Shown: positions 434 through 9,335 of the stretch, piece by piece
How positions within the stretch are numbered: the first letter of the stretch is position 1
Layout: the number at the start of each line of letters is the position of its first letter
Assembly: GCF_020510705.1 (NCBI RefSeq)
Contig: NZ_CP075184.1
Coordinates: forward strand, 310,001 to 374,000
Source: Acidovorax radicis
GTDB lineage: Bacteria; Pseudomonadota; Gammaproteobacteria; Burkholderiales; Burkholderiaceae_C
Length of the DNA: 64,000 nt
Direction: 5' to 3'
The notes under the pieces: model-generated
Seen by the model: the letters and a program-made list of their open reading frames with translations, nothing else
The model's database searches: none
What the model was told of the DNA's origin: nothing
Made by a program: the position numbers and the translations under genes

Positions 434-1168
434 ATGCGCCGTGCCGACCGCCTGTTCCAGATCGTGCAGCTCATCCGTGGGCGGCGCCTGACCACCGCTG
501 CCTTTCTGGCCGAGCGGCTGGAGGTCTCGCCCCGCACCATCTACCGTGACGTGGCGGATTTGCAGCACCAGGGCGTCCCCATCGAAGGCGAGGCCGGGGT
601 GGGCTACCGCTTGGGTGCGGGTTTTGATTTGCCCCCGCTGATGTTCAGCCAGGCAGAGGCCAACGCGCTGGTGGCGGCGGCCCGGCTGGCCCAGGCCTGG
701 CTCGACACCTCCATGGCGCGCGATGTGGAGGCCGCCCTGGGCAAGATCCTGTCGGTGTTGCCCCCGGCCGCCCGCGTGGCCGCCGAGGCACAGGCGCTGT
801 ATGCCCCATCGGTGGGGCTGGAGCCCCATGTGCAGGTCCATCTGCAAACCCTGCGCGAAGCCGTGCACAGCCGCCAAGTGGTGCAGATCGACTACGCCGA
901 CGTGCAGGGCCGCGCGAGCGTGCGCCGCCTGCGCCCGCTGGGGTGCTTTTATTGGGGCAAGGTCTGGACGCTGTCGGCCTGGTGCGAGCTGCGCAATGAC
1001 TTTCGCGGCTTCCGCATCGACCGCATTGCGGCCATCAGCGTGTTGGACGAACAGTTTCGGCAGGAGCCCGGCAAGACCCTGGCCGACTTGCTGCGCAAGG
1101 TGGAGGGGGAGATGGCGGGGCGATCAGCGGAATGCGCGACTGCGCCAGGGGCCGCGGTAAATTCCTGA
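434..1168 (+). CDS. WYL-domain transcriptional regulator, YafY family
   Basis: The 244-residue protein has an N-terminal HTH_11-type winged helix (residues 1-60; RLEVSPRTIYRDVADLQHQG is the recognition region) and a C-terminal WYL domain from about residue 135 (VVQIDYADVQGRASVRRLRP, then FRGFRIDRI). Length and domain order match the YafY/YobV group of one-component regulators, in which the WYL domain senses a ligand. The ATG at 434 lies shortly after repeat A1, and no strong Shine-Dalgarno sequence is visible. The gene follows the truncated effector-binding protein on the same strand; such pairs are common, but a functional link here is inference. The target genes are not evident. Confidence 0.85.
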   Translation: MRRADRLFQIVQLIRGRRLTTAAFLAERLEVSPRTIYRDVADLQHQGVPIEGEAGVGYRLGAGFDLPPLMFSQAEANALVAAARLAQAWLDTSMARDVEAALGKILSVLPPAARVAAEAQALYAPSVGLEPHVQVHLQTLREAVHSRQVVQIDYADVQGRASVRRLRPLGCFYWGKVWTLSAWCELRNDFRGFRIDRIAAISVLDEQFRQEPGKTLADLLRKVEGEMAGRSAECATAPGAAVNS

Positions 1169-1413
1169 AAGAGTGAATCGCGGGAATAAGGGTATGGGCC
1201 CTGAGCAGACCATTGGCAATAATGCCGGACAGCCGCCGTTCACATGCTACCCGCTTCCTGACAGTTCAAAACGTGATGTCTAGGTGTCCACTGTCAGCCT
1301 ATAGTTTGCTGAGTTGATGCCTCCAGCCCAATCTGCAACTACTTCTTGGCGGAACAAGTGTCCAGAGTGTCCCACGGTCCAGTTTATCCCGTAGGTTATG
1401 CGGTCTAAGTTAC
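1169..1413. other. Gene-poor spacer before the integron cassette
   Basis: Non-coding and visibly more AT-rich than the flanks. It holds no recognisable gene, integrase or clear attI. The octamer TAGGTGTC, which follows the cassette boundary at 1417, occurs once more here near 1282 and could mark the remnant of an earlier cassette junction. Confidence 0.4.
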
Positions 1414-1420
1414 GTTAGGT
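1414..1420 (+). other. Integron recombination core site (R', GTTRRRY) at the cassette 5' boundary
   Basis: The heptamer GTTAGGT matches the integron core-site consensus GTTRRRY and lies 5 bp before the cassette ATG. Its exact reverse complement, ACCTAAC, is the R'' box of the attC at the other end of the cassette. This pairing is the expected signature of a genuine integron cassette. Confidence 0.75.
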
Positions 1421-1425
1421 GTCTC

Positions 1426-2130
1426 ATGCGATACGTTGCAACTGGTCGAATCCACCCCGAGCGAGCAGGTATTCGCTTCGGTCCTATTGAATGGAAGATT
1501 CCCGATCATGGACGGGCCGTCGCGCAATGTGACTCATCCCAAGTCACCATACTTCTAGATCTCAAGTCAATCGACGGCTTTATCACCGCATACATTGCTG
1601 CTGAGCACTTTGCTCATATCGTCGTGGGTGCGCTGGGCTTCTCGCTTGGTTCAGGCTACTCAGTCGAACTGATTCAAGTTACAGAGGAAGATGGAACTCC
1701 GCATGTATTTGGAGTCCGTCCCGCAGGTGAATCGCCGACCGAGACGCTCGCAATTGAACCACATGGTCCGGTCTTCAATCGAGCTTTCACACTGGCGAAT
1801 CACGATCTCTTCTTCAGGTTAGCACTGCGTGACTACCTGCGAGCTATCAACGACACAACTGACTGCGCTACCTACTGCTTCCGCGTTGTTGAAAGTCTCA
1901 AGTCTGCATTTGCCTTCAAGACCGGCAAGGACAGTTGGCAACCTCTACACGACGCCTTGGGTACAGATCGCGCAAGCATCGACAACACCATAAAGGTGTA
2001 CGCTGATCCCGTTCGTCATGGAAACTGGATCAACGCAAAGCCGACCGATGGACCAACGCGCTGGAAGATGCTGGTTCTAACCCGAGACATTCTTCTGAAG
2101 TACTTGGAGCGTGAGCAACCCTCCACCTAA
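1426..2130 (+). CDS. Integron-cassette-encoded protein of unknown function, possible HEPN-like C-terminus
   Basis: A 234-residue protein of unrecognised family. The ATG lies 5 bp after the GTTAGGT core, and the TAA stop lies inside the attC R'' box, the usual tight packing of cassette genes. Codon use is visibly less GC-rich than in all neighbours, a sign of transfer. The N-terminal half is predicted mixed beta. The C-terminal half (about 140-230) is helical with YCFRVVESLK and later DPVRHGNW; an Arg/Glu helix followed by an R-H-G motif recalls HEPN-type RNase or helical-bundle proteins, but this is only a resemblance. No signal peptide or membrane segment is seen. Many cassettes carry defence or stress functions; no function is assigned here. 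Confidence 0.8.
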   Translation: MRYVATGRIHPERAGIRFGPIEWKIPDHGRAVAQCDSSQVTILLDLKSIDGFITAYIAAEHFAHIVVGALGFSLGSGYSVELIQVTEEDGTPHVFGVRPAGESPTETLAIEPHGPVFNRAFTLANHDLFFRLALRDYLRAINDTTDCATYCFRVVESLKSAFAFKTGKDSWQPLHDALGTDRASIDNTIKVYADPVRHGNWINAKPTDGPTRWKMLVLTRDILLKYLEREQPST

Positions 2131-2182
2131 CCCACTGCTCCAGCCGTCCATCTCCGACGGCGGCTGAACGCCAACGTTGAGT
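2125..2182 (+). other. attC: attC recombination site (59-base element) of the integron cassette
   Basis: 58 bp bounded by R'' ACCTAAC (2125-2131) and R' GTTGAGT (2176-2182), both matching the consensus pair RYYYAAC/GTTRRRY. Inside lie inverted L boxes, CAGCCG near 2141 and CGGCTG near 2161, giving the imperfect folded-back structure of a short attC. R'' is the exact complement of the core at 1414-1420. A second GTTRRRY heptamer (GTTGAGC, near 2232), preceded by a stretch resembling the attC left part (CTGCTCC then GGCCG), may be a decayed neighbouring site. Confidence 0.8.
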
Positions 2183-2315
2183 GTCCGCTTTACCCAAGAG
2201 CCACCGACTGCTCCTGGCCGAAAACAGCCGTTGAGCCCAGCTTGGTAAAAAGAGTTTCACAGCCCCGACGTCGCATTGTCCCGCGAGTGATGCCGCACTA
2301 CGGGGCCGTGCCCTC

Positions 2316-2804
2316 TCAACCCGCCAGCGCCGCCTCAATATCCCCCGCCAGCTTCTTGGGTGCGTCCTGCGGCGCGTAGCGGCGGATCATGCGGCCATCC
2401 TTGCCGACGAGGAACTTGGTGAAGTTCCACTTGATGGCCTTGCTGCCCAGCAGGCCTGGGGCCTCGGCGGTGAGCCATTTGTACAGGGGTGAGGCGTCGG
2501 CACCGTTCACGTCGATCTTGGCCATCATCGGAAAACTCACGCCGTAGTTGAGCTGGCAGAAGCTGGCGATTTCGTCGTTGCTGCCCGGGTCCTGGCGACC
2601 GAACTGGTTGCAGGGAAACCCCAGCACCACCAAGCCCCGGTCGGCGTACTGCTTGTGCAGCTCTTCCAGCCCACCAAACTGGGGCGTGAAGCCGCAAGCG
2701 CTGGCCGTGTTCACGATCAGCAGCACCTTGCCCTGATAGTGCGACAGGGGCACGGTCTGGCCGTTCATCTGCAGGGCTTCAAAGTCGTACAGGGTCTCAG
2801 GCAT
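2316..2804 (-). CDS. Glutathione peroxidase family thiol peroxidase
   Basis: The 162-residue protein has the family hallmarks: NTASACGFTPQ with peroxidatic Cys37 (cysteine rather than selenocysteine), LGFPCNQFGRQDPGS (second Cys and the conserved Gln region) and WNFTKFLV near residue 130. Bacterial enzymes of this group reduce hydroperoxides, usually using thioredoxin. The ATG at 2804 is preceded by GGAG at good spacing; the much longer open frame upstream runs antisense to the transporter gene and is not coding. No signal peptide, so cytoplasmic. It converges with the cassette region, whose attC lies about 130 bp beyond its stop. Confidence 0.93.
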   Translation of the reverse strand: MPETLYDFEALQMNGQTVPLSHYQGKVLLIVNTASACGFTPQFGGLEELHKQYADRGLVVLGFPCNQFGRQDPGSNDEIASFCQLNYGVSFPMMAKIDVNGADASPLYKWLTAEAPGLLGSKAIKWNFTKFLVGKDGRMIRRYAPQDAPKKLAGDIEAALAG

Positions 2805-2875
2805 GGCGCGCGCTCCAGGGGGAATGATGGCGCATGGTACCCGGGCACCGACGGTGCGGTGGGCGCGCCAGCCGC

Positions 2876-7592: not shown

Positions 7593-7863
7593 TAGAGCCT
7601 GTTTACGATCTCCCAGGGGTCGCGCAGCGGTCTTTGCGGGATGGGATGCAAGGCGCGGTGCGCAGTGGATAGCATGGCTATTCACAAGCGCCGCAACGCC
7701 GCAGACCGCCCGCAAAGACCACTGCCCGAAGGGTTGGAGCGCAATCGGGCGATTGGACGCCCCGGCTGCTTGCATGGGCATGAGCCCATGCGGCGCACCC
7801 GAAGCATCCACTCATCCCGATTGCGTTCCAACGCGGCTCCTGCGAGATCGTAAACAGGCTCTA
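7593..7863. repeat. 271-bp T-shaped (three-way junction) inverted-repeat element, MITE-like
   Basis: Perfect 19-bp terminal inverted repeats: TAGAGCCTGTTTACGATCT (7593-7611) and its complement (7845-7863), extended inward by a weaker stem. Inside are two long hairpins. Arm 1 pairs 7624-7640 with 7709-7725 (16 of 17) and carries an inner stem 7665-7673/7677-7685. Arm 2 pairs 7734-7749 with 7816-7831 (15 of 16) and carries a perfect inner stem 7772-7779/7784-7791. No transposase is encoded; an open frame of 70 codons inside is fully explained by the folded structure. It fills the interval between the NorE-like gene and the next membrane protein. Confidence 0.75.
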
Positions 7864-7928
7864 AGGTGTCATCGCGTTACGATGGCGCGGACCCCAGCCA
7901 GTGGGCGCCTTGGGGGGATCACAACACC

Positions 7929-8726
7929 ATGAAAGCCGCTTCTTCATCGCGCCGAGCCCGCCCGCCGTTGGTCACCGCTGCGGGCCTTCGCCAGCGCCTG
8001 CTGGCACGCCACAGCCTGCGCTGGCACGGGCTGTGTATCGGCAGTTTCACGATGGCGTTGATGTGGGCCACGTCGCACCTGCAGATGGTGATGGGCGTGG
8101 ATTCACTGGCGCTGCGCTACCTGGTCACGCTGGGTGTGGGCTATGGCGCTTATCTGCTGGTGCTGCGCCTGTGGGCCGCGCGCCTGGTCGGCCATCGCAG
8201 CGAGGGCGCGCAGTGGGATGGGTCCGTGGACCTGCCGGATGTCTGGCCCGGTCGGGCCCCGGGTGGGGGTTCGGGCGCCACGCTGCCACGCACGGGCGGT
8301 GGCGACTTCGGTGGCGCGGGGGCCGAGGGCGGTTTTGGCGACGGTCTGGGAGACCTTGGCGACGTGGCCGGTGGCGCGCTGGAGGCTGCGGGCAGCGCCG
8401 ATGAAGGCGCCGTGGTGCTGGTGCCGCTGGTGGCGGTGTTTCTGATGGGCGTGTTGTTGGTGGGGGGCGCCGGTGCGCTGGCGATGCTGTACTTCGGCTG
8501 GGACGTGTTGCTCGCCGTGGCCGTGGAGCTGGCGTTCTCGGTGGTCACGGCCCGCGCGGCGGTGGGCATGGAGCGCGGCGGGTGGCTGGGCGCTGCCGTG
8601 CGCCTGACCTGGAAACCCCTCTTGGGTGCGCTGGTGTGCGCCGTGGCACTGGGCGCCACCATCGACCACTTTCTACCCGGTGTGCAGTCTTTGCCCCAGG
8701 CGGTGCGGGCGATTCAGGGGCGCTAA
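7929..8726 (+). CDS. Hypothetical membrane protein with Gly/Asp-rich linker
   Basis: 265 residues from the ATG at 7929. Two N-terminal membrane segments (about 38-55 and 62-82) are followed by a charged stretch, a low-complexity linker rich in Gly, Asp and Ala (about 118-165; e.g. GGGDFGGAGAEGGFGDGLGD), then two or three membrane segments (about 172-215 and 236-250). No catalytic motif is recognised. An upstream GTG at 7866 would start at the very end of the T-shaped repeat and is less likely. The linker gives the appearance of a periplasmic or cytoplasmic loop joining two membrane modules. Function unknown. Confidence 0.6.
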   Translation: MKAASSSRRARPPLVTAAGLRQRLLARHSLRWHGLCIGSFTMALMWATSHLQMVMGVDSLALRYLVTLGVGYGAYLLVLRLWAARLVGHRSEGAQWDGSVDLPDVWPGRAPGGGSGATLPRTGGGDFGGAGAEGGFGDGLGDLGDVAGGALEAAGSADEGAVVLVPLVAVFLMGVLLVGGAGALAMLYFGWDVLLAVAVELAFSVVTARAAVGMERGGWLGAAVRLTWKPLLGALVCAVALGATIDHFLPGVQSLPQAVRAIQGR

Positions 8727-8740
8727 TCCACTCATTTTTT

Positions 8741-8786
8741 CATAGCTGCTAGCGCTTGTGCAATAAGCGCTAGAGCCCGTTTTCTT
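8741..8786. repeat. Family A palindromic repeat, copy A3
   Basis: ATAGCTGCTAGCGCTT...AATAAGCGCTAGAGCC, one of the most complete copies. It lies 15 bp after the stop of the membrane protein and 49 bp past the marR-like stop. Confidence 0.75.
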
Positions 8787-8834
8787 CTAAAAATCCGTTG
8801 CAACGCGTCTGCCAGGGTGATGCGTGCCGTGGCA

Positions 8835-9335
8835 TCAATGCCCGCTCCCGTGGTCACCTCTCGGGTGTGTGCCAGCGCACGGTGCCCCGCCCGATGTGTC
8901 CAGAGCATCCAGGCTGTCGCGCAGCTGCTGGATCTGCGCCAGCAGTTGCGCCTGGGTATTTTTGTCGCAGTTCTTGAGCGCAGACGCAGCCAATGCCTGC
9001 CGTGATTCGCGCAATGCCTTGTACAAGTCACTGCCCTGGGGGCTGAGCGCTAGGCAGCGGCTGCGTTTGTCTTGGGCATGGGGCGCGCGCTCCAGCCAGC
9101 CCTTGTCCTGCAGCAGGCCCAGCATCCGTGCGACCTGGGCTTTGTCGGCGCCGCTGTGGGCCACCAGCTCTTTTTGGGTGGCGCCGGGGTGGCGGCCAAT
9201 GAAGGACAGCGCACGCACTTCATTGAGCGTCAGCTCGGGGTGGACTGCGGCCATGGCGCGCACCATGTGCGCTCGGTACACATGCATGAGGTCGTGCATG
9301 GCGTCGAAAACATCGCGGGGGTTGCGTGGGCTCAT
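8835..9335 (-). CDS. MarR-family transcriptional regulator
   Basis: 166 residues with the MarR winged-helix core: LTLNEVRALSFIGRHPGATQ, KAQVARMLGLLQDKGWLERA (recognition helix and wing) and the basic wing DKRSRCLALSPQG. MarR proteins bind palindromes as dimers and are released by small ligands. The ATG at 9335 is chosen; a TTG at 9347 would add four residues and overlap the operator. It is divergent from the siderophore-interacting protein gene, with two TTGA-N5-TCAA palindromes between them, so autoregulation and control of that gene are likely. The C-terminus (GTHPRGDHGSGH) is His/Gly-rich. Confidence 0.88.
   Translation of the reverse strand: MSPRNPRDVFDAMHDLMHVYRAHMVRAMAAVHPELTLNEVRALSFIGRHPGATQKELVAHSGADKAQVARMLGLLQDKGWLERAPHAQDKRSRCLALSPQGSDLYKALRESRQALAASALKNCDKNTQAQLLAQIQQLRDSLDALDTSGGAPCAGTHPRGDHGSGH

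Follow-up and report, generated by a model that had tools for sequence, protein, structure and literature searches.

The window analysed here is a stretch of 64,000 nucleotides from Acidovorax radicis, positions 310001-374000 of a 5.0 Mb contig (NZ_CP075184.1). Between two host genes it holds an integron gene cassette with a real attC (Table 1). A sequence-only reading had described a GTTAGGT core (1414-1420), an open reading frame (1426-2130) and an attC with the boxes R'' ACCTAAC (2125-2131) and R' GTTGAGT (2176-2182), and each of these was recovered where it had been placed. The 5′ core at 1414 is the reverse complement of the cassette's own R'', the stop codon TAA (2128-2130) lies inside R'', and the R and L boxes of the site are paired. 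The gene is also AT-richer than its surroundings, as had been noted: GC content is 52-54% in three 500-base intervals over 1251-2250 and 61-70% in most other intervals.

Table 1. Features of the locus. Positions are those of the window, except in the last row, where numbers are contig positions.
Feature	Position	Strand	Basis
Full extent of the intI-less integron unit, comprising both ends, the attI-like site and one cassette	about 1196..2221	+	left-element HMM, BLAST, comparison of copies
Left neighbour, HTH_11/WYL regulator, host gene	434..1168	+	domain search
Left end, GGGCCC 1196-1201 then TGAGCAGACC; consensus GGGCCCTGAGCCGCC	1187..1250	+	HMM, aligned copies
attI-like site	1358..1413	+	BLAST, alignment of copies, HMM
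Core GTTAGGT, crossover point between attI and cassette	1414..1420	+	letters, alignment of copies
Cassette gene, 234 aa	1426..2130	+	ORF list, translation, structure comparison
attC (R'' ACCTAAC ... R' GTTGAGT)	2125..2182	+	covariance model, 48.5 bits, E 2e-10
Right end GTTGAGTGTCCGCTTT...CACCGACTGCTCCTGGCCGA	2176..2221	+	BLAST, HMM
Right neighbour, glutathione peroxidase family, host gene	2316..2804	-	domain search
attC loci of the same genome	window; 1776033, 1776650; 2116108, 2116468; 2351712, 2352934; 4249803, 4250842, 4251672; 3525156 beside intI		

The covariance search proposed in that reading was performed with a model of 13 attC from other loci, the window site being left out of training. 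It recovered the 58-base site as the sole match in the 64 kb at E up to 5 (48.5 bits, E 2e-10). Twelve of the training sites were picked up by a duplex search of DNA adjoining related units' right ends, and one by a separate search; three of the 13 are from the same genome. In the training alignment the share of paired cells is 91.0% (83.7% in shuffles) and the covariation 0.225 (0.100 in shuffles), with 0/500 shuffles as good, a control that leans towards structure because the sites were chosen partly for pairing. Folded as a single strand, the window attC gave z -2.4 for the top strand (5/200 shuffles as good) and z -2.2 for the bottom strand (6/200). Rfam returned no matches at gathering thresholds. 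Absence of the cassette from related strains had been named as a further check, and it had no match in 29 relatives' loci around the neighbouring GSHPx gene (the match plus up to 1.5 kb on each side).

Structure comparison divides the 234-residue cassette protein into an N-terminal alpha/beta part and a C-terminal HEPN-like helical part, the best structural matches of residues 122-233 being HEPN proteins. The HEPN-like character suggested earlier for the RHG motif thus has moderate structural support. The conserved residues are R197 (46/47), H198 (47/47) and G199 (47/47), whereas the canonical Rx4-6H motif lacks conservation: the arginine at position 170, which precedes H175 by five residues, occurs in 30/47 and is replaced by serine in the window protein. 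The protein probably holds a HEPN-like part without the canonical motif, according to these structural comparisons. As had been said of the product, it is unrecognised, with no family matched in Pfam, PADLOC, NCBIfam or PHROGs.

The DNA on both sides of the cassette belongs to elements that recur in the genus. Although no attI had been seen in the window, the 56 bases preceding the core align with the attI of both intI-bearing and intI-less copies from the genus, and we regard them as an attI-like site. A left-element HMM, built without the window copy, matches the window at 1194-1322 and 1325-1438. Between these matches, some 55 bases around the LexA-like box upstream of attI (HMM positions 142-195) are absent from the window copy; in other copies this stretch holds the start of intI and the box. 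On the other side, BLAST with window 2177-2820 finds its first 44-58 bases at 14 further places (14 genomes, counting its own); the right-end HMM gives E 3.9e-16, the window copy being one of its seeds. The boundaries of the unit were set by comparison with other copies.

Compared with a complete integron, the locus has an attI by sequence alignment and no intI beside it, the gene lying 3.2 Mb away in the contig. Nor is it a CALIN as defined by IntegronFinder 2.0 (at least two clustered attC, no intI), as it has one attC. What it has is both conserved ends, in the same orientation, around an attI and a cassette. The sequence-only reading therefore stands as to an integron cassette with a real attC and falls as to an orphan insertion or the edge of an array: the unit is closed, has an attI-like site of its own and a conserved end on either side, and contains this cassette only. 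One cassette, one attC and no intI in the window would also be expected had an integrase inserted an orphan cassette off target at a chance GTT (an attG-type event leaving a single-attC CALIN), and off-target insertion is proposed as one origin of CALINs in the accessible text of PMC8618304. Such an event is very improbable here, as the left flank is a genus-wide attI-like region, the right flank is a genus-wide end, and the 11 attC found in the genome sit in six loci with the same right end.

The statement that an integrase is lacking nearby holds for the window, but an intact intI is encoded elsewhere in the same contig, at 3523244-3524188 (TIGR02249, 444 bits, cut-off 265). The attC model finds the 11 attC at E up to 1, three of them being training sites. 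Apart from the window and the intI locus, three intI-less loci have two attC and one has three. By HMM the right end closes all six loci, a result obtained by construction because those six were HMM seeds; independently of the HMM, a right end from another genome recovers 4/6 loci and the right flank of the window recovers a fifth (4249765). An attI-like start was found at 5/6 loci, one of these with intI, and the left-region search gave no attI-like match at the 2116-kb locus. Near two further right ends in this genome, at 4255720 and 2965435 (G000:C1), no attC was found. The largest intI-less array of the genome has an attC interrupted by an element that appears by eye to be of the IS110 type (L091, about 7730-9220).

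The intI protein of this genome is 92% identical to that of another genome of the genus, G025. The right end is present at its locus, and the left end, CCCTGAGCCGCC, directly abuts an element with an IS30-type transposase (named by eye) and is cut there. Its attI subtype differs from that of the intI-less units, referred to below as platforms; recognition of both by one integrase is putative.

The unit is one of many in the genus. With a fuller copy of the left, attI-bearing region as query, 124 matches, some partial, were found in 36/47 genus genomes. When window 1169-1413 served as the query, 26/47 genomes matched, mostly within the last 89 bases, and a right end taken from another genome gave 108 matches in 32/47 genomes. 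An intI scoring over the cut-off is present in 11/47 genomes, nine of them among the 36 with platform matches, so that 27 of the 36 have none over the cut-off. Beyond the genus, platform-like attI DNA was detected (E 1e-8) in 28/299 family genomes and 19/141 genera; three of the 28 belong to the genus itself, and some of the matches may be ordinary attI beside intI. A distant-mode search of plasmid records gave no match to the intI-less platform.

Aligned copies share the sequence from GGGCCC through the first intI codons (the reverse complement of GCCGGGTTTCAT) and then attI up to TTAC|GTT, where similarity ends and the cassettes start. In the fetched loci 53 copies reach attI, up to four of them beside intI; the window copy was left out because its HMM match is split. 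A right end lies downstream on the same strand, 343-4357 bases on, in 43/53 copies, and the other ten have none in the DNA fetched. Conversely, for 24/74 right-end matches in the loci, the 6 kb upstream on that strand hold no attI-like region. No sigma-70-like promoter was seen in two copies scanned by a simple method.

First cassettes were delimited by a simple pattern, which misplaced a few cores by some bases; eight were dropped. All 45 remaining cassettes are distinct, while the median identity between pairs of attI is 80%. Thirty pairs of copies show 88% identity or more; in 29 of them, comparison of the left flanks over up to 800 bases gives no match, the sole exception being an orthologous pair (G014/G015). 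One highly similar pair with unrelated left flanks lies within a single genome (L095 and L096, both in G025). In L120, L126 and L127 two units stand back to back around a common left palindrome. Units in inverted orientation, back to back with one left palindrome in common, were also observed in L089.

In aligned copies the left boundary is GRCNGCTYYGGGCCC and the right boundary GACTGCTCCTGGCCGA, with a palindromic-end consensus of about GRCNGCTYYGGGCCYDAGCNGCC. The likeness between the left end and the reverse complement of the right end is moderate, with 1/1000 shuffles as good. As in MITEs and other elements with TIRs, terminal inverted repeats are present, in an imperfect form. No target-site duplication was detected in 26 units, their own pairing being no better than reshuffled pairing.

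Similar ends bound modules that carry plain genes. Genome G036 holds a 1003-base module at two places with 99% identity (L139:5447-6449 and L143:5146-6148); its breaks fall at GGGCCC and CCTGGCCG, and its gene looks like a serine hydrolase, by eye only. This duplication speaks for a second class of mobile gene modules. G036 and G037 differ in entire module arrays within the shared borders TTCCGCTATCGGCCAG and CTTCTGGCCGTTTCCTGTC, with flanks 98% and 95% identical. An inverted repeat of 50 bases, GCTGCTCTTGGCCGGATTCTGCC...GGGCCCAAAGC, is located between modules and has 26 matches in the 58 sequences scanned. A gene resembling serine resolvases or invertases (by eye) was seen beside the variable module array in both genomes (L141:5103-5678 in G036, L146:6028-6603 in G037), and tblastn found it in no other locus scanned.

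These observations raise the possibility that the ends are REP-like hairpins which act only as hot spots of homologous or illegitimate recombination, with no dedicated enzyme and with arrays changing by homologous exchange between platforms. The related inverted repeat between non-integron modules, the lack of a target duplication and the replacement of an array between shared borders in G036 and G037 are all in keeping with this. It is nevertheless unlikely, given that both the duplicated G036 module and the class 3 integrons described below, in two backgrounds, have exact ends and share only short stretches at their borders.

The intI-bearing form of the unit is represented by G025, where the left end is followed by intI (352 codons, read in reverse), a LexA-type box (CTGTTTTTTTGTACAG), attI, one cassette, attC and the right end. 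In G030 an intI unit with a broken intI frame stands back to back with an intI-less unit. The genus has attI of two subtypes and intI of two lineages (77% protein identity), L010/L083 representing one and L131 the other; the intI-less platforms carry the L131 attI subtype. Many platforms retain traces of the integrase region. The LexA-like box has the exact form CTGT-N8-ACAG in 12/53 copies and a near form in 26/53, figures that have no chance control, and tblastn detected a 49-residue intI remnant at L103:2118-2261. Short N-terminal remnants of intI were noted near units at L158 (by eye) and L103 (tblastn), and these are possible intermediates of intI loss.

Such remnants, the retained intI start and the retained boxes, with the caveat on their counts given above, could mean that complete integrons at many sites each lost intI separately and that the intI-less state is immobile. 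Decay in place is nonetheless rather improbable. Some thirty aligned copies have one and the same junction between left end and intI start, and intI-less copies that closely resemble each other occur at unrelated sites. Both observations point to spread of the deleted form.

While most copies differ in location, one pair allows cassette content to be compared at a fixed site. G015 (L123) and G014 (L119) carry the unit at one common site, with flanks 96.4% identical over 1655 bases and 97.0% over 4369 bases. Their alignment breaks off at L123:1665, in the attI core, and picks up again at L123:2266, three bases short of the last R' core. Between these cores G015 has one cassette in 600 bases and G014 has 2179 bases in which four cassettes can be made out by eye; the attC model finds the attC of three of the four. 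The alignment reported no similarity between the two contents. G014 has an intI on another contig, with a platform-type attI, and no intI was found in G015 at E 1e-60. The difference is what cassette exchange by IntI acting in trans would leave. Homologous exchange of whole arrays would yield these breakpoints too, because the similarity between two platforms extends exactly to those cores.

At the window locus itself, relatives are too diverged for an exact empty site to be read. In G014, G039, G026 and G042 a short gap separates the two host genes, G002, G021, G027 and G033 hold other genes bounded by similar motifs, and G034 and G038 hold other genes. The insert in G027 is a unit with the same ends, another gene and an attI that looks degraded by eye. 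Two candidate empty sites elsewhere were rejected: in G036 the place of the G037 unit L144 is occupied by another 808-base insert, and in G037 the region corresponding to the G036 unit L139 is mosaic.

The intI-bearing form, unlike the intI-less platform, matched plasmid records. With the intI locus of the window's genome as query, the matches to class 3 integrons begin at base 14, at the left end. A Diaphorobacter plasmid (NZ_CP049911) carries a complete unit with both ends, and both ends are likewise present in the class 3 integron of the IncQ plasmid pQ7 (NC_014356). In class 3 records from Klebsiella, Aeromonas, Enterobacter and E. coli plasmids, the left end CCCTGAGCCGCCATCCAGAT lies beyond the intI3 stop and the right-end kind GTTGAGCGACTGCTTACC...GCTCCTGGCCGG follows the last attC. 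These integrons differ from the units described here in having intI3 and resistance cassettes and in their setting, either next to tniR (LC622104, LC735978 and NZ_LC589062, the last two also with annotated tniABQ) or on an IncQ plasmid. The DNA outside them differs on both sides, except for TCGA just left of the unit. Their right ends are matched by the HMM at E 3e-8 to 8e-6, where 20 shuffled control sets gave two matches at E 0.01; for the left end, whose length is insufficient for the HMM (E 0.16 to 0.28), the assignment rests on direct identity. By this test of shared ends, class 3 integrons belong to the unit family as judged from their sequences. A gene pair for a nucleotidyltransferase and a DUF86 protein, which we take to be of the MNT/HEPN type, lies just beyond one class 3 right end (L238:7888-8612).

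Among the class 1 matches listed, BLAST with the left end of the genome's own intI unit began inside intI1, and the left end CCCTGAGCC is absent beyond the intI1 stop in the one class 1 record examined. Class 1 integrons bounded by MITEs and integron mobilisation units also have non-coding repeats on either side of an integron; in the present units the ends are part of the integron, and the missing component is intI. Like CALINs, as these are presented in the published text available, the units have attC-bearing cassettes far from intI; they differ in that the cassette stands behind an attI-like site, with conserved ends and in many copies. The available text of PMC12444791 describes CALIN cassettes as mobilisable in trans by a functional IntI. 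Delta-attI-type cassettes also have pieces of attI in unusual places that recombine with IntI1, but according to the available text of PMC12901181 those pieces replace attC within mobile integrons. IntegronFinder 2.0 detects no attI outside class 1, according to the consulted part of PMC9024848, so units of the present kind would be reported as CALINs or missed. In the literature covered, consisting of titles and abstract openings and leaving most subscription journals outside, no description of intI-less attI units with conserved ends was met.

Taken together, these comparisons support a model in which the window holds a non-autonomous integron: a mobile unit delimited by its two ends, with attI and one cassette and without intI. 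As anatomy, a family of end-bounded integrons in which most copies lack intI and keep attI is well supported. By comparison of copies, the ends are sharp, the sites are unrelated, the cassettes differ at the same crossover point and content has turned over at a fixed site. The family has two forms. The intI-bearing one consists of intI, LexA-type box, attI, cassettes and both ends. In the intI-less one intI is deleted, leaving the intI start, attI and, in many copies, the LexA-like box, which is lost from the window copy. An IntI from elsewhere in the cell, or one in an ancestor, may insert and remove platform cassettes in trans. This service would be at best intermittent, because 27 of the 36 platform genomes have no intI over the cut-off. 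A putative recombinase or transposase would spread the units by way of their palindromic ends, and such ends delimit plain gene modules as well. We infer these two engines, IntI in trans and an enzyme at the ends, and we consider it fairly probable that this is a mobile integron family with many intI-less platforms, filled by the one and dispersed by the other.

A broader version is conceivable, though we hold it only tentatively. One IntI, whether a cell's own, a past or a borrowed one, would serve scattered platforms as a distributed integron; the platforms would be one cargo among modules exchanged at the GRCNGCTYYGGCC palindrome by a putative, undescribed recombinase, and class 3 would be an offshoot captured with both ends.

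In the accessible text of PMC12444791, integrons are described as technically not mobile themselves. CALINs are described, in the parts of the sources available, as degraded integrons or as products of off-target insertion or rearrangement (PMC9024848, PMC8618304), intI loss being among the origins proposed in the second. The arrays reported here have no intI; their docking site and their ends are conserved, they occur dispersed and in numbers, and their cassettes differ at a fixed place. This makes testable both the origin of CALINs and, since class 3 integrons keep both ends, the question of what moved chromosomal integrons into plasmids. Annotators would do well to look beside 'orphan' attC for attI-like sites and ends. 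The recurrence of docking units with varied cargo across the genus suggests a way in which 'orphan' cassettes arise and spread.
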